Source of the DNA: Bacteroidia bacterium
Lineage (GTDB): Bacteria; Bacteroidota; Bacteroidia; B-17B0; Aurantibacillaceae
Length of the DNA stretch: 64,000 nucleotides
Direction of reading: 5' to 3'
NCBI GenBank assembly: GCA_016787785.1
Contig: JAEUTO010000014.1
Coordinates: 248,001 to 312,000 of the forward strand
Positions 28,294-63,835 of the stretch are shown here, one piece after another (the stretch's first letter is position 1; each line of letters begins with the position of its first letter). Made by a program: the position numbers and the translations under genes. The notes under the pieces are model-generated. The model did no database searches and was not told the origin of the DNA. It saw only the letters and a program-made list of their open reading frames with translations.

Positions 28294-28321
28294 GCTCCAA
28301 TGTTTTAGTTCTTATAATTTT

Positions 28322-28693
28322 GCAAGCCTGTAAGCCGGGTTCTGTTTCATCGTGAGTTTAACCCCACGATATATTCTATCATTTATCTTTGCGACCTACC
28401 CATTGCGGCTTCCATTTCTGAAATAAGACGAGCCGCCTTAATTACCGCAACCTATTTGGCCTTTCAACATCCGAGGTTTACCCAACACAATTATCACTAA
28501 CCATGCTTGTGAGCTCTTACCTCACATTTTCACTATCACCGGTAACTTGCGTTACAGGCTACCTTGTTTTCTGTGGCACTTTCTGTTACAAAAACATTTC
28601 GGTTTTTGCACCCATCCTTTCAGATGGCGGATCGCCCTATGTTGCCCGGACTTTCCTCCACGAGTTTGCACCCGCGGCGATAGAACAACTTGC
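28322..28693 (-). ncRNA. rnpB: RNase P RNA, bacterial class A
   Basis: The catalytic RNA that removes 5' leaders from pre-tRNAs. Read on the minus strand it has the near-universal 5' core GAGGAAAGTCCGGGC (28646-28660). It also has the 3' element ACAGAACCCGGCTTA near 28331-28345. The ends pair as P1: GCAAG at 28693-28689 with CTTGC at 28326-28322. The resulting length of about 372 nt is normal for class A. Exact ends are set by the P1 helix and could differ by a few bases. Confidence 0.93.
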
Positions 28694-28766
28694 ATTTAAA
28701 TTTACGAAAAAATATTTAAAAAGGTTTCATATAATAGTTAACAAAATATGATCATTTAGTGTACAA

Positions 28767-57892: not shown

Positions 57893-57938
57893 TTATATAA
57901 ATATATTAAAAATTCAGAAGAATCCGGCATTTAACCGT

Positions 57939-57983
57939 CGTTATGTTAAACTAGCTTAGGTATGTGAGAGAGGGTCGGGTTGG
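57939..57983 (+). repeat. 45-bp island repeat, copy 1
   Basis: Starts CGTTATGTTAAACTAGCTTA and ends GGGTTGG (57977-57983). Two further copies at 60138 and 60391 keep the same blocks (ATGTTAA, TAGCTT, GGGTTGG) and the same 35-36 bp offset between TTATGTT and GGGTTGG. It marks the left edge of the island. Confidence 0.6.
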
Positions 57984-58053
57984 CTTTGTGAGTCGGTCGC
58001 CTTTTTCTTTAAAACCTACGGAAAGTCAATGGTAGTAAGGGGTTGAAAAAAAA

Positions 58054-58105
58054 TTGCATAATTGTGCAACTTTTTTACTACTTTCGTACTAGTATATTAC
58101 TAGTA
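58054..58105 (+). promoter_or_regulatory. Palindrome-rich regulatory region
   Basis: TTGCA-N6-TGCAA (58054-58069) is followed by a possible -7 element TACTTTCG (58079-58086), and then by the 8-bp palindrome TACTAGTA twice with a 3-bp spacer (58087-58094 and 58098-58105). TTG to TACTTTCG is 22 bp. This looks like a repressed promoter reading to the right, but no protein frame follows. Transcription would cover the reverse complement of the tRNA-like sequence and end at the terminator at 58239-58264. Confidence 0.45.
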
Positions 58106-58124
58106 ATGTTCTTTTAAATATTGA

Positions 58125-58214
58125 TACTACGGTGGGAATCAAACCCACAACCTCTTCTAAGATTAAGTCCCCCCGGACTCGGCGAAGCGCTCTATTCATT
58201 TGAGCTACGTAGCA
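58125..58214 (-). tRNA. tRNA-like sequence with expanded anticodon loop
   Basis: Three cloverleaf arms are intact on the minus strand. The acceptor TGCTACG (58214-58208) pairs with CGTAGTA (58131-58125, one G-T). The D arm is GCTC/GAGC. The T arm is GTGGG-TTTGATT-CCCAC. The anticodon stem can be read as CTTC/GAAG, but it closes about 26 bases instead of 9, with an internal perfect hairpin AGTCC-GGGG-GGACT. Read instead as a long-variable-arm tRNA, the anticodon arm needs two T-G pairs and lacks T33. So it is either a disrupted tRNA gene, a tRNA with an insertion, or a tRNA mimic. The amino acid cannot be assigned. Confidence 0.4.
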
Positions 58215-58238
58215 ATTTCAATATTTCAATTATAACGG

Positions 58239-58264
58239 AAGGTCGCTTTATGCGGCCTTTTTTT
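58239..58264 (+). terminator. Rho-independent terminator, plus strand
   Basis: AAGGTCGC (58239-58246) pairs with GCGGCCTT (58252-58259, one G-T) and runs into seven T. It points rightward. On the minus strand the flank is A-rich, so it is not a terminator for the gene at 58268. It implies a plus-strand transcript through the antisense of the tRNA-like sequence. Confidence 0.6.
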
Positions 58265-58267
58265 ATT

Positions 58268-58774
58268 TTATGCGGCTACTATATCAGAATTAATAAATCC
58301 GGCTTTGGGCTCACCGTTTTCATTTAACCAATCTTTCCTGCCCCAAACCGTGCTTTTAAATGAAGAATTGGTTTGGTATGAAGTAATATTACATTCACCT
58401 AGTTTACCACGTTTCCATTTTGAAAGAAGGTTAGATACCTGTAATTTAAATTCTTCTTTATTTTTGTTAGGATAATATTTATCCATTAATTTATTCGTTA
58501 CAAATTCACAGGTAACAAAAACTTTAATTTCATTTTCAATAAACTCTTTAACGAGATTTTGTAGCGAAAGTTTAGACGAGAATCTGTATGTTATAATATT
58601 CGCTTGAACAGGCTTTGCTTCTGTAAGAGGCTTGTTCTTATTAAGCAAGTATTCAATAGTGCCTTTTAGCTGCTTAATGTCTGCATCAAACGGAGCAGTC
58701 ACAATGCTACGTTGCTCTTCAATCAAAAAAATTTCTTTTTGAAGGTCTTTAATTATGTCGTCGTAGCTTTTCAT
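58268..58774 (-). CDS. Orphan island protein, possible winged-helix
   Basis: A 168-residue protein. Residues 1-50 look like a coiled coil (DIIKDLQKEIFLIEEQRSIV). Residues ~70-150 have the rhythm of a winged helix (LSLQNLVKEFIENEIKVFV, VTNKLMDKYYPNKN, LLSKWKRGKLGECNI), ending in a basic, aromatic segment (WGRKDWLNENGEP). No named family is recognised, and DNA binding is a guess from pattern. It is the first gene of the island. Confidence 0.55.
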   Translation of the reverse strand: MKSYDDIIKDLQKEIFLIEEQRSIVTAPFDADIKQLKGTIEYLLNKNKPLTEAKPVQANIITYRFSSKLSLQNLVKEFIENEIKVFVTCEFVTNKLMDKYYPNKNKEEFKLQVSNLLSKWKRGKLGECNITSYQTNSSFKSTVWGRKDWLNENGEPKAGFINSDIVAA

Positions 58775-58958
58775 TATTCGATACGGTAAAGATATATAAT
58801 TAAATTCTGTTAGGGTTTTTGTTTACTAGTCTTTCTATTAACAAAGAGGTCGAGTTATGAACACCACTTTAGTACAGGTTTTCAACATTTGTTATTATTA
58901 CAATACGGCTCATTCATGTTACCCCTCAAAGCTATATGAACATAACGAAAGGTTATAT

Positions 58959-58980
58959 CCTACCTACAGCTGGAGGTAGG
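58959..58980. other. Hairpin before the DUF3800 gene
   Basis: CCTACCT (58959-58965) pairs with AGGTAGG (58974-58980) over an 8-base loop. Just before it, ATAAC (58942-58946) pairs with GTTAT (58952-58956) inside the island motif ACATAACG (58940-58947). The 240 bp between 58774 and 59015 hold no gene. A CGGCT..TTACCC stretch at about 58909-58925 weakly recalls the conserved core of the structured elements A and B. Confidence 0.45.
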
Positions 58981-59014
58981 TAAAAATTATGGAAATAAGT
59001 TATAACTTTAGCGT

Positions 59015-59764
59015 ATGCACTTATTATATGTAGATGAAAGCGGTGACCCTGGAATAAGCCAGTATAGCAGTAAGCACTTCATTTTAACGGGATTGATAGT
59101 ATCACAAGACAATTGGGATAAAAACTTAAGAAATCTTAAGGAGTTTAGAAAAGCGCTAAAGGCTAATTATGGATTTAACCAAAGAACCGAAATACACGCA
59201 AATGAATTAATAAGAATTAGCGGAAACGAAGACTATAAAAAATTCACTAAAACTCAGCGCATAGGTATTTTAAAAGAATATGCAAGACAAATTCCAATAA
59301 TATTTAATGATTCTAAATTTATAAATATTTGTATTGATAAATCACAACACAAATCCCATACTGAAATTATAAATTTAGCGTGGGGTAGACTAATTGAGAG
59401 GTACGACACGTATTTAAAGAAAGTTGCAAAAGACAATGGGGTTATAATTTCAGATGACACAGACGGTAAAAAAGTAATGCAGTTGTTAAGAAAAATGAGA
59501 ATATATAACCCTGTTAAATCTCATTTTTATGATGGTCCTTATAATGCTCCATCAGATAATATAATAGAAGATGTTTTTCAGAGGAACTCTAAAGATTCTT
59601 ATTTTATTCAAACTGTTGACGTTGTAACTCAATTATTATACAGAAAAGAATACCCAAAAGGGTCATTAAAAAAATACGGTTTAGAAAGGCAGTTTGACCT
59701 TTTACATCCTGTATTGTTATTAGAAGCGTCTAGGAACGATCCTTTCGGAATTGTCAGAAAATAA
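59015..59764 (+). CDS. DUF3800 domain protein
   Basis: A 249-residue protein of the DUF3800 family, an RNase H-like fold with a predicted nuclease-type acidic site. The family start is LLYVDESGDPG (Asp7, Glu8, Asp11). Further blocks are SKHFILTGLIVSQDNWD, EIHANELIR, and the C-terminal YFIQTVDVVTQLLYR with Asp, matching the last conserved acidic position. DUF3800 genes are frequent in mobile islands and near defence genes, but their target is unknown. It stands alone with a strong terminator 5 bp after its stop, which is typical of a self-contained cassette gene. Confidence 0.88.
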   Translation: MHLLYVDESGDPGISQYSSKHFILTGLIVSQDNWDKNLRNLKEFRKALKANYGFNQRTEIHANELIRISGNEDYKKFTKTQRIGILKEYARQIPIIFNDSKFINICIDKSQHKSHTEIINLAWGRLIERYDTYLKKVAKDNGVIISDDTDGKKVMQLLRKMRIYNPVKSHFYDGPYNAPSDNIIEDVFQRNSKDSYFIQTVDVVTQLLYRKEYPKGSLKKYGLERQFDLLHPVLLLEASRNDPFGIVRK

Positions 59765-59768
59765 TAAA

Positions 59769-59798
59769 CCCCGGTTAAAAAACCGGGGAATTTTTTTT
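59769..59798 (+). terminator. Rho-independent terminator of the DUF3800 gene
   Basis: CCCCGGTT (59769-59776) pairs with AACCGGGG (59781-59788) around AAAA, followed by AA and eight T. It is a textbook intrinsic terminator starting 4 bp after the stop. Confidence 0.93.
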
Positions 59799-59937
59799 GC
59801 GGCCCAACTAAAACAAGCGGTCTTAGCTCGGTCGGCTTATCACAATTATACGGAGATTTATTATTTTGAGTTGTTAAAATCTCGTTAAATATCAACAATT
59901 AAATGTTATATCAACAATACATCCATTTATATTTCTT

Positions 59938-60148
59938 TTTTCGACTTTCCGTAGGAAAGGATTGTTAATGGACGATACATCTAGTGCTTGGCGCAGGGAA
60001 GGAATTGAAGCGAAAATTCTTTTTAATTTTCCGCTCAATTGGCGGCTATTTACCGAAGGCTCGACATAACGATAATTATGTGATTTGAAGTAGATTAGCA
60101 TAGTCATATGCAAATATACGAAAATTATATAATTTCTCGTTATGTTAA
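59938..60148 (+). repeat. Structured repeat element A
   Basis: Non-coding element homologous to element B. In order: hairpin CTTTCC-gta-GGAAAG (59945-59959); conserved ATGGACGATACATCTAGTG (59968-59986); conserved GGCGCAGGGAAG (59990-60001). Next comes a 15-bp stem in three steps, AATTG/CAATT, AGCG/CGCT, AAAATT/AATTTT (60003-60040), with bulged A60008 and C60031. Then conserved GCGGCTATTTACC and a terminal hairpin with arms at 60064-60079 and 60129-60145 (ACATAACGA against TCGTTATGT). The ATG in it begins a frame that is not kept in element B, so it is not a gene. The region 59765-60612 otherwise holds only repeats. Confidence 0.8.
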
Positions 60149-60181
60149 TATAGCTTAGACTGAGTGGTGGCGTAGGGTTGG
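60138..60181 (+). repeat. 45-bp island repeat, copy 2
   Basis: CGTTATGTTAATATAGCTTA through GGGTTGG (60175-60181). Its first bases are also the right arm of the terminal hairpin of structured element A, linking the two repeat types. Confidence 0.6.
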
Positions 60182-60220
60182 CGATGTGCTGATGCTTATT
60201 TCAGAACTCAATTTAAGTAA

Positions 60221-60369
60221 CGTTAAATTTGAAATATTGAAGATTTTTTGCCGATGAAAAAAGGCGAAAATGCAAAACCCAGAGCTGTTATGTTTGTATG
60301 AACATAACTGGTAAAAGCTGATTACGTAATTGACTTTTACCTGCTCTGGATTTCACTTCAAATTTAACG
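60221..60369. other. Cruciform / three-way-junction palindrome
   Basis: The ends are a perfect 13-bp inverted repeat, CGTTAAATTTGAA (60221-60233) and TTCAAATTTAACG (60357-60369). Inside, CCAGAGC (60279-60285) pairs with GCTCTGG (60343-60349). Two hairpins sit side by side within that stem: GTTATGTT/AACATAAC (60287-60308) and GGTAAAAG/CTTTTACC (60310-60341). No protein frame of useful length overlaps. It could be a folded RNA, a recombination site or a replication-related palindrome. Confidence 0.7.
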
Positions 60370-60390
60370 AAATATATTAACAAACGAACT

Positions 60391-60434
60391 AAATATGTTA
60401 AATAGCTTCGGAATGTGTGCTTGCGTAGGGTTGG
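60391..60434 (+). repeat. 45-bp island repeat, copy 3
   Basis: AAATATGTTAAATAGCTTCG through GGGTTGG (60428-60434). It lies 21 bp after the cruciform. Confidence 0.55.
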
Positions 60435-60612
60435 GTTTGAAGAAGAGAATGTTCTTTTGAAATAAATGAAACTGGTTGCTTTGGACACAATCCTGAGCGA
60501 AATAAAAAGGCGTAATATAGAGTTTGGAATTCTATAAAATTGGGTCGCTTTTTATGACCTCTGCTTCATTACATCAAAGCTAATACAAATATAATAAAAA
60601 GCCTGAGTAACA

Positions 60613-60894
60613 TTGGGCTATTTATTAACCATTAACACACACTTTGCCGATGCTAAATTTAATATTTTTTATATGCCTACAAGAGATGGTGAAATGCCCG
60701 GAATGTTACAAATAACTTATGGTTGCGTTCTTTTAGAAAAAAAAATAAACGCCTTAATTCAAGAGTTTAAAGAAATATATAATGAACCTTCTGTTACAAT
60801 AACAGAAGGCGCAGAGTATAAAATTAAAGTATCAGTTCACCACCCTAAACTGATGGATCAATATCAAAATTGTCTTCAACATAAGAATAGCTAA
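60613..60894 (+). CDS. Small orphan protein, uncertain start
   Basis: A frame of 93 residues if it starts at the TTG at 60613, or 73 from the ATG at 60673 (MPTRDGEMPGMLQ). Text such as LLEKKINALIQEFKEIYNEP and TEGAEYKIKVSVHHPK looks like a real protein. No family known. Its last 50 bp overlap the end of the gene on the other strand, a compact tail-to-tail arrangement. Confidence 0.45.
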   Translation: MGYLLTINTHFADAKFNIFYMPTRDGEMPGMLQITYGCVLLEKKINALIQEFKEIYNEPSVTITEGAEYKIKVSVHHPKLMDQYQNCLQHKNS

Positions 60895-61090
60895 AAACTG
60901 CATTTGTTTGTTTGTCTTTTACTAAACAAGTTAAATGAATAACAACAGACCATCCTTCTTTATAATCGTCAAGGTCTAATTTATCCACTACATAAGGAAT
61001 GTTAGTTTTATGTTCTTTAAGTTTTGTTCCTTTTTTATAAGTTTTGCTTAATTCTTCAAGCTTTTTTTGTGCTTCTTCTTTTGTTGCCAT
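60845..61090 (-). CDS. Small orphan protein, unknown function
   Basis: An 81-residue acidic/basic mixed protein (MATKEEAQKKLEELSKTYKK start, then PYVVDKLDLDDYKEGWSVVI). A good Shine-Dalgarno-like GAGG lies 5 bases before the ATG, which is unusual for Bacteroidota and hints at a foreign origin. No domain recognised. Confidence 0.6.
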   Translation of the reverse strand: MATKEEAQKKLEELSKTYKKGTKLKEHKTNIPYVVDKLDLDDYKEGWSVVIHLTCLVKDKQTNAVFSYSYVEDNFDIDPSV

Positions 61091-61130
61091 TTTTCCTCAG
61101 TTTTTAGTTTTCTCAGTTTATTTTTAAATC

Positions 61131-61331
61131 TTATTTATTTTGTTCGGGTTGTTTAAAAAATTTAAACAGTGCATAAGCTCCAATACAAGCTAACAATATA
61201 ACAACACTTCGTATTATTTCATATCTTAAAGTCCAAATACTTTTAACTGCAACAAATACAATAAATCCAACAGGTATTAAGAAAATTGAAAATATTACTA
61301 TTATAGCAACGTTGTCTTTTAGCCATTTCAT
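61131..61331 (-). CDS. Small membrane protein
   Basis: A 66-residue protein with two hydrophobic helices (AIIVIFSIFLIPVGFIVFVA and SVVILLACIGAYALFKFF). The ATG at 61331 shares its A with the stop of the upstream gene (TGATG), so it is translated by coupling. The start two codons earlier is less likely. Role unknown; it may be the membrane partner of the exported protein before it. Confidence 0.65.
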   Translation of the reverse strand: MKWLKDNVAIIVIFSIFLIPVGFIVFVAVKSIWTLRYEIIRSVVILLACIGAYALFKFFKQPEQNK

Positions 61332-61924
61332 CACCAATCTTTTTTAAGCATAGCTGTTTTATAACCTTCAACGATCTTTCCTACTTCTATTTCAATTCCT
61401 TCAAAAAAGCCGTATTTCTTTTCTAAGTTTACTCCCATCTTTCCACCTTTTCTCTTTCTATAACTCTTATCTTTGTACTTTTCTTCAACTGGATATTTAA
61501 CTATTTGTTCATCTATAATATCAACAGTCCAAAAAGCGCCTGATTGCATTTTAGCATTTGATACCAACGTCAAAACCATATCAGTAAGCTCATATTTTAG
61601 TTTTCCCGCTCTGAAATACAATTTATAGCTATAAACGACATCTCTATATTCGCCGTTGTAATAAGCCTGTATTATTGATTTGCCAATGATCTTATTTGTA
61701 TCACTTATCAGTATTGGATAGTCTTTAGACGCACTTGTAATTCGAATATGGTCTTTCATCTTATTGTAAATATCCTTTTGAGACATTCCTTCGTATTCTA
61801 ATACATTAGTGTAATTGATTTTACCATCGGCATCAAAGGGACAGTTGACAATTGTTTCATCATCAAATTGAGCAATTGAGTTTAAATTAAGGCTTAAAAT
61901 TCCTAAAAACAACAGTAATTTCAT
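61331..61924 (-). CDS. Exported DUF4468-like protein
   Basis: A 197-residue protein with signal peptide MKLLLFLGILSLNLNSIAQ. The pattern INYTNVLEYEGMSQKDIYNK, then an amphipathic strand region VVYSYKLYFRAGKLKYELTD and ILISDTNKIIGK, resembles the TBP-like DUF4468 domain found in exported Bacteroidota proteins. The match is from memory of the pattern, so the family is tentative. It is coupled to the small membrane protein downstream. Confidence 0.6.
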   Translation of the reverse strand: MKLLLFLGILSLNLNSIAQFDDETIVNCPFDADGKINYTNVLEYEGMSQKDIYNKMKDHIRITSASKDYPILISDTNKIIGKSIIQAYYNGEYRDVVYSYKLYFRAGKLKYELTDMVLTLVSNAKMQSGAFWTVDIIDEQIVKYPVEEKYKDKSYRKRKGGKMGVNLEKKYGFFEGIEIEVGKIVEGYKTAMLKKDW

Positions 61925-61971
61925 TTATTGGTTAAATTGTACCTAATGCTACTAAAGGTGATTATAAAAGG

Positions 61972-62116
61972 CAGGCGTGGAGCATTTAGCTACTTGTTGC
62001 CGAGGTGTTTCGAGTACCTACAAACCAAATAAACTAAAGCCCACGCCTGTTATGGCGCAAACGCATAGCATAGTTGGGTTTGTAGTGGTTGGGAATTTCT
62101 CGAAACTTTCGGCAAC
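61972..62116. other. Nested imperfect hairpin with possible pseudoknot
   Basis: Three successive arms nest: GTTGCCGA/TCGGCAAC (61996-62003, 62109-62116), GTTTCGAG/CTCGAAAC (62007-62014, 62099-62106) and CTACAAACC/GGTTTGTAG (62018-62026, 62077-62085). In addition CAGGCGTGG (61972-61980), outside the stem, is complementary to CCACGCCTG (62041-62049) in its loop, which would form a pseudoknot. The gene-free stretch 61925-62238 consists mostly of this element. An open frame across it from 61977 is a by-product. Confidence 0.7.
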
Positions 62117-62238
62117 CAAGCAAACTAACGCTTGCAATATTTACATAAAGATAATAAAAAGTGACAAATCTGTCACGATTTTAAACTTTAATATTTCATT
62201 ACAAGGTTGTTAGTTAAAATAATAGCTATTTTTAAGGT

Positions 62239-62484
62239 ATGGATAAATTTTATTGCTTTTTCGCAAGGCCAGAAAAATGGCTTTTAATAGACAGAATTGA
62301 AGAAATTATTAAAGAATACATAGCAAATAATAAATACTATGGCGATGACTATGAAGTTAAACTTGATGAGATTGATCCTTCTGTAAAGGAGATAATAGTT
62401 CGTAATCCAACTGATTATTTTCTTGACGAAATACAGGTGAGCGTCGGTGCCAAAATGTCTGAATGTAATCCTTATCAAGGCTAA
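62239..62484 (+). CDS. Small orphan protein (overlaps a minus-strand frame)
   Basis: An 81-residue protein (MDKFYCFFARPEKWLLIDRI, then EEIIKEYIANNKYYGDDYEV) with good amino-acid composition. Its C-terminal half overlaps the minus-strand frame at 62357-62635 by 128 bp. At most one of the two may be fully real over that stretch, and I cannot decide from sequence alone. Confidence 0.5.
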   Translation: MDKFYCFFARPEKWLLIDRIEEIIKEYIANNKYYGDDYEVKLDEIDPSVKEIIVRNPTDYFLDEIQVSVGAKMSECNPYQG

Positions 62485-62635
62485 CGTGTTTTCTTGTGCT
62501 TAAAAGCATAAACTCAATTGTTTGTAAAGCATCTTCAATATTTCCGTTTCTTATATGAATTATAGCTTTATCGCAATTTTCGTAAACAGGGTTGAGTAAT
62601 TCCTTTTTGATTTGGTCTAAATCTGATTTTTCCAT
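62357..62635 (-). CDS. Small orphan protein (overlaps a plus-strand frame)
   Basis: A 92-residue frame. The first ~55 residues (MEKSDLDQIKKELLNPVYEN, AIIHIRNGNIEDALQTIEFM) look like a genuine helical protein. The rest overlaps the plus-strand gene and has a less natural composition. It lies just left of structured element B. Confidence 0.5.
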   Translation of the reverse strand: MEKSDLDQIKKELLNPVYENCDKAIIHIRNGNIEDALQTIEFMLLSTRKHVSLDKDYIQTFWHRRSPVFRQENNQLDYELLSPLQKDQSHQV

Positions 62636-62659
62636 TTTAATACGTTTAAGGTTAATGTT

Positions 62660-62888
62660 CTTTCGACTTTTCGCAGAAAAGGAACATAAATGGACGATAC
62701 ATCTAGTGGAAGGCGCAGGGAAGAAATGAAAGACTGAAATCCTTTATTTCATGTCTTCATTTGCGGCTATTTACCCGTAAGGGCAAGCCTGTTAAGGCGC
62801 AGACATAACGTTAATTATATGTATTTAGTGTTTTAAAGTCTATTTATTGATTTAAAATACAAATATATATAATTAACATTATGTTAAA
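62660..62888 (+). repeat. Structured repeat element B
   Basis: Homologue of element A with the same order of parts. These are hairpin CTTTTC-gca-GAAAAG (62667-62681), ATGGACGATACATCTAGTG (62690-62708), GGCGCAGGGAAG (62712-62723), a 16-bp stem, GCGGCTATTTACC, a CCC-gtaa-GGG hairpin and a terminal hairpin. The 16-bp stem AAATGA/TCATTT, AGAC/GTCT, TGAAAT/ATTTCA (62724-62762) has bulged A62730 and T62752 at the same joints as in A. The terminal arms (62803-62826 and 62861-62884) pair over 24 positions with one mismatch and one wobble. It ends in TTATGTTAAATAG like the 45-bp repeats. The gene-free region 62636-62932 is this element. Confidence 0.8.
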
Positions 62889-62899
62889 TAGATAAGTGC

Positions 62900-63160: not shown

Positions 63161-63835
63161 ATGAGCATTAAATCACTGTCACCCGAATGGAATAACCTCT
63201 TACATTCTGAGTTTGATAAAGCTTATTATAAAGAACTGCAGTCTCATGTTAATCAAGCCTACAAATCGCATACCATCTATCCTCCGGCCAATCTGGTTTT
63301 TCACGCATTACAACTTTGTTCGTTCGAAGCTATTAAAGTGGTAATTATTGGTCAGGATCCCTATCATGGTCCTAACCAGGCACACGGCCTTAGTTTTTCG
63401 GTTACCAACCAGGTGCGCACACCGCCCAGCCTCAAAAATATTTACAAAGAATTGCACACAGATATTCCCGGCTTTGAGATCCCAAACTCGGGAAACCTTG
63501 ATAGTTGGGCAAAACAAGGGGTTTTATTACTTAACGCCGTTTTAACCGTGCAAGCCGGTTTGCCGGGCAGCCACAAAAATTTTGGCTGGCAACACTTTAC
63601 CGATGCCATTATTAAACTCATTAGCGAGAAAAAAGAGCATGTTGTTTTCCTGTTATGGGGCGCTTATGCCGCTGCCAAAGCAGAACTGATAAACAAGGAC
63701 AAGCATTTGATATTAACCGCCGCACACCCATCGCCATTAGCACGTGGCGCCTTTTTTGGAAGCAAACACTTTAGTAAGACCAATAAATATCTTGAAGAAA
63801 ATAATTTAACGCCTATTAATTGGAAGTTAACTTAG
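63161..63835 (+). CDS. ung: Uracil-DNA glycosylase, family 1
   Basis: A 224-residue enzyme that removes uracil from DNA as the first step of base excision repair. The water-activating motif is VVIIGQDPYHGPNQAHGLSF (core GQDPYH, about residues 64-69). The uracil-binding region is LLLNAVLTV, and the minor-groove intercalation loop is AAHPSPLARGAFFGSKHFS with its essential His. Length and motifs are standard. The last 20 bp overlap the end of the convergent gene at the window edge. Confidence 0.96.
   Translation: MSIKSLSPEWNNLLHSEFDKAYYKELQSHVNQAYKSHTIYPPANLVFHALQLCSFEAIKVVIIGQDPYHGPNQAHGLSFSVTNQVRTPPSLKNIYKELHTDIPGFEIPNSGNLDSWAKQGVLLLNAVLTVQAGLPGSHKNFGWQHFTDAIIKLISEKKEHVVFLLWGAYAAAKAELINKDKHLILTAAHPSPLARGAFFGSKHFSKTNKYLEENNLTPINWKLT

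Follow-up and report, generated by a model that had tools for sequence, protein, structure and literature searches.

Paired hairpin modules beside a putative chromosomal dif site in a Bacteroidia genome: a candidate tandem array of Xer-dependent mobile units

The 64,000-nucleotide stretch analysed here (the window; contig JAEUTO010000014.1, positions 248,001 to 312,000, assembly GCA_016787785.1, family Aurantibacillaceae) holds two homologous non-coding modules, A and B, of about 230 nt, in which the fold is conserved and the stem sequence is not, and the question they raise is whether such elements act as RNA or as DNA, and to what they belong. They are most likely a new variant of the integrative mobile elements exploiting Xer (IMEX) rather than a new RNA, and probably are not free-standing RNA genes. 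With moderate confidence the region from 57.93 to 62.89 kb is read as a tandem array of non-autonomous IMEX, inserted serially on the XerC side of the dif site, each unit ending in a module. A preliminary description of the two elements had taken into its coordinates the inverted-repeat tails at 60064–60152 and 62803–62891, and it is these tails that turn out to be the key to identifying the elements.

Modules A and B and their relatives

From left to right each module comprises a hairpin H1, conserved blocks 1 and 2, a longer hairpin H2, a third block running into a dif-like arm, and an inverted pair of dif-like sites:

59945–59959, plus strand: hairpin H1 of module A
59968–60001, plus: blocks 1 and 2 of A (block 1, ATGGACGATACATCTAGTG, 59968–59986; block 2, GGCGCAGGGAAG, 59990–60001)
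60003–60040, plus: hairpin H2 of A, with paired steps of 6, 3 and 6 bp set apart by a bulged A and then a bulged C
60042–60069, plus: block 3 of A (GCGGCTATTTACC, 60042–60054) and, in the left dif-like site, the XerD arm, interrupted by 11 nt between CTATTTA and ACATAA
60064–60152, plus: inverted dif-like site pair of A, a predicted folded attP; right site ATTATATAA-TTTCTCG-TTATGTTAATATA
62667–62681, plus: hairpin H1 of module B
62690–62723, plus: blocks 1 (62690–62708) and 2 (62712–62723) of B
62724–62762, plus: hairpin H2 of B
62763–62808, plus: block 3 (62763–62775) and split XerD arm of B (CTATTTA, H3a at 62774–62783, H3b at 62787–62798, ACATAA)
62803–62891, plus: inverted dif-like site pair of B

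The three blocks lie where the preliminary description had placed them, and within the window's own genome block 1 occurs in exact form in A and B only. The two-sided change noticed in H1 (CTTTCC/GGAAAG against CTTTTC/GAAAAG) holds as well. For H2 a three-step stem with a left bulged A and a right bulged pyrimidine had been described, which is correct for A (C) and B (T) and fails as a general rule: the right bulge is an A in L013 9101, L013 11885, both L063 copies and L138 (L numbers are our handles for loci, G numbers for genomes), and the long stem lacks bulged steps in two copies from further afield, L103 and the virus contig L154. A tiny open reading frame (ORF) starting at ATGGACGAT was dropped because other copies have no ATG.

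By blastn over 87 genomes of the family, copies were found in five, all of the window's genus, and others were added by inspecting the same locus in relatives. A covariance model (R1) built from nine copies gave matches at E <= 0.01 in 8 of the 87 family genomes (the order sample being the same 87) and in 3 of 395 genomes of the class sample, again all of the window's genus, these genome runs having used stricter filters under which weak matches are lost. A DNA pattern run over the genome collection returned seven loci, five of them in Bacteroidota and one new (L103, in a further Bacteroidota metagenome-assembled genome); L100 and L106 from the same run gave no model match and so were taken as chance, L106 also reading as coding. 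Matches to the pattern in IMG/VR at L012, L152, L153, L155 (weak, 14.4 bits) and L156 were taken as chance too. The virus contig L154 scored 19 bits with the model (E 0.015), shows neither H1 nor block 1 clearly, and was accepted by eye on its H2 and H3 hairpins and inverted pair. Two further virus patterns returned L154 alone and nothing, respectively, and blastn of module B against plasmids and phages gave no match. The set for comparison is 15 modules, of which nine genomes of the genus (G000, G003, G005, G011, G024, G031, G033, G034 and G041) supply 13, and L103 and L154 one each. Some of them are incomplete: H1 is clear in 11 and, as judged by eye, an H2-like stem is present in 14, including that of L015, for which the folding program favours another fold.

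Covariation across these copies is strong. A sequence-only alignment of nine copies scores 0.343 for covariation, where shuffles average 0.160 (none of 500 shuffles reaches it, and slid partners give at most 0.229), and pairing cells make up 83.3% of it against 71.0 in the shuffles. In the 19 rows fitted by the model, an alignment biased toward the structure, the paired share is 94.4%, and both partners vary in 18 of the 21 pairs. The selection on structure that had been claimed from A and B is thereby upheld, since the model finds more copies in other genomes of the genus with their stems kept and the covariation beats the shuffles.

Which nucleic acid does the folding is a further issue. Among 260 stem cells in 13 rows (six of the 19 were left out) 242 are Watson-Crick, 4 are G.T, 1 is A.C and 13 are other, and the 61 pairs predicted for H3, being those picked by the folding program, are Watson-Crick throughout. 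RNA stems usually allow more G.U, and because pairs of this type are nearly absent we lean, on these base counts, toward modules that would fold as DNA rather than RNA. Whole modules have extreme fold energies as single-stranded DNA (ssDNA), with z of −6.97 for the plus strand of B, −7.40 for its minus strand and −5.12 for the plus strand of A, none of 200 shuffles equalling them, and in the predicted fold of the minus strand of B CTATTTA pairs with TAAATAG and H3a and H3b stick out. When the tail is left off and the module is folded as RNA by itself, A is at chance level (z −0.44) and B somewhat better than chance (z −2.01). An Rfam scan of the window at gathering scores matched RNase P alone and nothing at the modules. 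The RNase P RNA (bacterial class A) lies at 28315–28696 on the minus strand.

Inverted dif-like sites at a dif-like locus

All bacterial copies of the module lie at one locus, which carries marks of a chromosomal dif site and looks like one. In the window its right side is laid out as follows:

62864–62891, plus: right site of the module B pair, the putative chromosomal dif; the XerC half would come from the unit, the centre TTAACA and XerD arm TTATGTTAAAT from the chromosome
63161–63835, plus: a gene that we take to be that of uracil-DNA glycosylase, the constant right neighbour

The sequence ATAATTAACATTATGTTAAAT is kept at the same place also in relatives that have no module, and it has the layout of a dif, with two arms and a 6-bp centre, the right arm being identical to the XerD arm of E. 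coli. Matches with at most two mismatches occur in 34 of 40 genomes of the genus, in 31 of them exactly once; at up to three mismatches the figure is 39 of 40, and the reversed-pattern control is about equally frequent. A separate dif scan with too permissive a threshold gave mostly noise. The window's own genome encodes a XerD (334.7 bits against a cut-off of 329.6) and a second Xer protein that falls under the XerD cut-off (254 bits) and is taken for XerC. The glycosylase gene follows in 8 of 10 bacterial genomes with modules, and was not found in the examined stretches of G024 and L103, where the dif-like site is present. GC skew lends modest support: in the one-contig genome G003 it averages +0.016 in the 16 windows before the site and −0.025 in the 16 after, and the site, at 3.144 Mb, falls within the best positive skew arc of 0.565–3.445 Mb (10 of 300 permutations do as well).

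After each module come ACATAA, a centre and TTAT, and then, 60–92 nt on, a site of opposite orientation ending like TTATGTTAAATAG (found by script in 14 of 15 cases and by eye, 77 nt on, in L154). A pattern for such an inverted pair gave 15 hits over 27 loci, where shuffled sequence gave 0.3 on average, and 12 of the 15 pairs stand directly after a module. The XerD arm of the left site (CTATTTA...ACATAA) is split by 11–32 nt in 12 of the 15 modules and is nearly intact in L013 9834, L065 and G041; H3a and H3b are the hairpins into which the longer inserts fold. Across the units XerD arms face one another, with the complete inverted pairs at the right end. Since the tails of A and B are such inverted sites at a probable dif, each element appears to terminate an inserted unit of its own, and not, as had been supposed, to be one of two borders of a single 2.5-kb block of orphan genes. 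The earlier guess of a recombination site came close.

A known counterpart exists in CTXphi. Its attP is reported to have two dif-like sites in inverted orientation, some 90 nt from each other; folded as ssDNA this attP is what XerC acts on, and as double-stranded DNA it does not excise (PMC4246890, PMC5357621). The arrangement here has in common with it a close inverted dif-like pair with a predicted ssDNA fold, and with IMEX generally an insertion at a dif-like site, no recombinase named among the scanned cargo ORFs, and a host with XerD and a second Xer protein. No rolling-circle Rep family was found in the scanned cargo, a FLiP-like Rep occurring in the array of G041 only.

Units, cargo and a proposed mechanism

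The array in the window can be divided as follows, the limits of unit 2 being inferred from the dif-like sites:

57926–57953, plus: left end of the array and start of unit 1, where a poor XerC half is followed by XerD-arm-like TTATGTTAAACTA
57935–60132, plus: unit 1, with an ORF on the minus strand (58268–58774) and a DUF3800 gene (59015–59764) as cargo
60133–62872, plus: unit 2
60613–60894 plus, 60845–61090 minus, 61131–61337 minus, 61331–61924 minus, 62239–62484 plus, 62357–62635 minus: cargo ORFs of unit 2

Flank homology to L014 and L015 extends to about 57990. Unit 1 may itself consist of two; a degenerate inverted site, AGCTATATGAACATAAC, lies within it at 58930–58946. Each module had been said to lie downstream of a plus-strand gene, which holds for A, after the DUF3800 gene, and is ambiguous for B, where the plus-strand ORF 62239–62484 overlaps the minus-strand ORF 62357–62635, whose start adjoins the module. 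Within unit 2 a motif near GTGGCGTAGGGTTGG (60139–60456) comes after starts that resemble an XerD arm, at 60139 and 60392, and similar sequence opens units in L015 and L060; nested imperfect palindromes at 60203–60390 and 61967–62140 could be further decayed sites.

The DNA left of dif varies in length, from 0.7 kb in G015 and 1.3 kb in G005 through 5.0 kb in the window to 14.5 kb in G041, as counted from the nearest shared gene, the reference gene differing between genomes. Extra DNA lies on this side in the genomes inspected, with G003 and G004 carrying some on the right as well. Pfam applied to 31 cargo ORFs named KilA-N, DUF3800, a GNAT acetyltransferase and DUF2971, in one ORF each; PDC-S22 and PDC-S31, both candidate families of defence proteins, also have one ORF each (PDC-S31 at L060 10522–11256), and PHROGs gave 14 families, several of them undescribed. 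Neither Pfam nor PHROGs named a replication, capsid or recombinase family among these 31. A small ORF beside a GNAT acetyltransferase at L013 11074–11876 forms a toxin-antitoxin-like pair within cargo.

A unit would be planned as XerD arm, cargo genes and lastly module, the right part of the module acting as an attP of the CTXphi type in which the inverted sites would fold, in ssDNA, into one Xer-binding stem. The ssDNA of the unit could come from a helper, from conjugation or from uptake; its tail would fold into the dif-like stem, XerC would join this stem to dif, replication would resolve the junction, and the restored dif could serve the next unit. The left XerD arm is in most cases interrupted and should therefore make a poor double-stranded site, so that integration would be hard to reverse. 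The left part of the module (H1, the two unpaired blocks and H2) may be a cis-acting ssDNA signal on which a helper acts in trans. That this hairpin block beside the attP is a rolling-circle origin or a packaging signal is a tentative suggestion with a somewhat less than even chance, made by analogy because the block resembles in place and size the ori(+) of CTXphi, which is reported to span 167 bp and to contain several inverted repeats (PMC4439123).

What phages might act as helpers is suggested by two neighbours. In G041 the module stands directly left of a Finnlakeviridae-like prophage within the array (L138 12994 to L139 about 10400), whose Rep matches FLiP-2 (E 3e-34) and FLiP (E 2e-33) and whose capsid-sized protein has the FLiP and FLiP-2 major capsid proteins as its sole matches, weak ones (E 0.6); from the flanking sites it seems to have arrived later than the module and need not own it. 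An endolysin and a PAPS-reductase-like gene also lie in that prophage. An 18.9-kb crAss-like virus contig (IMGVR_UViG_3300049076_000013, L158 1–18909) opens with a module tail of H2, H3 and inverted pair, and the genes that follow include a homologue of a crAss-like stabilization protein; the contig is a linear fragment, and the tail could be the phage's own or that of a neighbour at dif. One may picture the module as a portable ssDNA origin plus attP, and the Rep-less cargo units as satellites of this genus's phages, an idea we hold to be rather doubtful. On it a crAss-like or tailless ssDNA phage would supply replication and capsids, host Xer would stack the satellites at dif, and the stacked units would form an integron-like gene store there.

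Weighing the alternatives, and known systems

Several findings sit poorly with an array of IMEX at dif. The conserved unpaired blocks have no explanation in it, and the energy of module B as a whole gives DNA no edge, the RNA fold being equally extreme (z −6.73). On the window's own contig the skew is 0.000 before the site (39 windows) and −0.032 after it (19 windows), with p 0.059, and the best single cut falls at 280 kb, the dif-like site lying at 311 kb. Inverted pairs occur without a module at L015 16858, L063 10373 and L064 10307, the XerC half at the left end of the array is poor, and in G003 (about 0.7 kb) and G004 (about 1.5 kb) extra DNA lies also right of dif. As to a helper, the window units hold no replication gene, a FLiP-like Rep occurs in one of 40 genomes of the genus (G041), and the FLiP genome itself, tried as a carrier of the module, gave no match; no relatives of the FLiP-like Rep were confirmed in IMG/VR. 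The right-side DNA of G003 and G004 holds an inverted module-like core without H2, and such a core right of dif, together with a further inverted dif-like pair, is seen at L063 9709–10440 and L064 9010–10380.

Double-stranded cargo moved by XerC and XerD, as in the pdif-type dif modules of Acinetobacter, with H1 to H2 as an accessory protein-binding sequence, would account for inverted dif-like sites flanking orphan and possible defence genes; described pdif sites are mostly opposite in orientation, and a hairpin pathway has been proposed for them too (PMC7399989). Against it the two inverted sites stand together, 60–92 nt apart, at one end of the unit, the insertions that split most left XerD arms should be intolerable in a double-stranded site, and pdif sites are reported in that source to have no accessory sequences; this account is judged unlikely. 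Less probable again is that each unit carries a structured RNA at its 3' end, whether this acts in cis or as a free molecule: the covariation, the unpaired conserved blocks, the orientation fixed relative to dif and the whole-module fold of B are what it would lead one to expect, and the near absence of G.U pairs (none of 61 in the H3 region), the tie of the copies to inverted dif-like sites, the failure of A without its tail to fold better than shuffles and the empty Rfam result are not.

A cassette array of the integron type, having attC sites but lacking an integrase nearby, was the first reading, as the orphan genes turn over in the manner of cassettes, the repeats ACATAAC/GTTATGT look like attC core sites, and Xer and integron integrases are kin; it was dropped because the common right end is dif-like, and single-copy, and because none of 40 genomes of the genus exceeds the integron integrase cut-off (TIGR02249). 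The array itself holds no integrase, and this reading now seems very improbable. Hardly credible is a non-autonomous transposon, IS200/IS605-like or dif-seeking, inserting beside Xer sites. The hairpin does carry a bulged base, and pdif and dif sites are reported as targets of one IS family (PMC10132070), but the module continues unbroken into the XerD arm and the eight genomes with model matches show none away from the locus, on which ground an IS200/IS605-like element was rejected.

Elsewhere in the genus a tyrosine recombinase of 374–383 residues is encoded at L081 4400–9998 (G003) and at L079 15556–16680 (the window's own genome, C6:425861-426673). The two score 216.3 and 210.2 bits with NF040815 (XerA/integron-integrase; cut-off 220) and match the integron integrase model in two pieces with the middle absent. 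In G003 the gene is followed by orphan genes, each with its own inverted repeats, and then by attC-like repeats, perhaps an unusual integron.

In the open-access literature, covered mostly at the level of listings, no report of such arrays at dif in Bacteroidota was found, and the closest published cases found in this phylum are virus genomes at dif. These are Bacteroidetes microvirus proviruses, some reported to have an additional dif-like site near one end and compared to CTXphi (PMC3091885), and, in Flavobacterium, phiCjT23-like prophages at dif (PMC9719478). They share with the window the phylum, the kind of target and the lack of an integrase, and differ in being virus genomes with Rep and capsid genes where the window units carry cargo only; dif may then be a place in which to seek small satellites in Bacteroidota. 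IMEX of the CTXphi type are alike in their close inverted dif-like sites with a similar XerC half and a divergent XerD half, in tandem arrays and in a probable insertion at dif by host Xer, whereas the window units lie in a Bacteroidota host, have no phage or Rep genes, and show an XerD arm split by covarying hairpins with a conserved H1-block-H2 segment beside the site. The dif modules of Acinetobacter resemble them as small cargo units with inverted dif-like sites and no recombinase of their own, and differ in that the sites here are together at one unit end, with hairpins, and at the probable chromosomal dif rather than on plasmids. With integron cassette arrays the window shares the logic of an array and a structured single-strand site, although this site is dif-like and no integron integrase was found above the cut-off; if the proposal is true, an integron-like array would store cargo without an integrase, by way of the machinery of chromosome dimer resolution and folded DNA.

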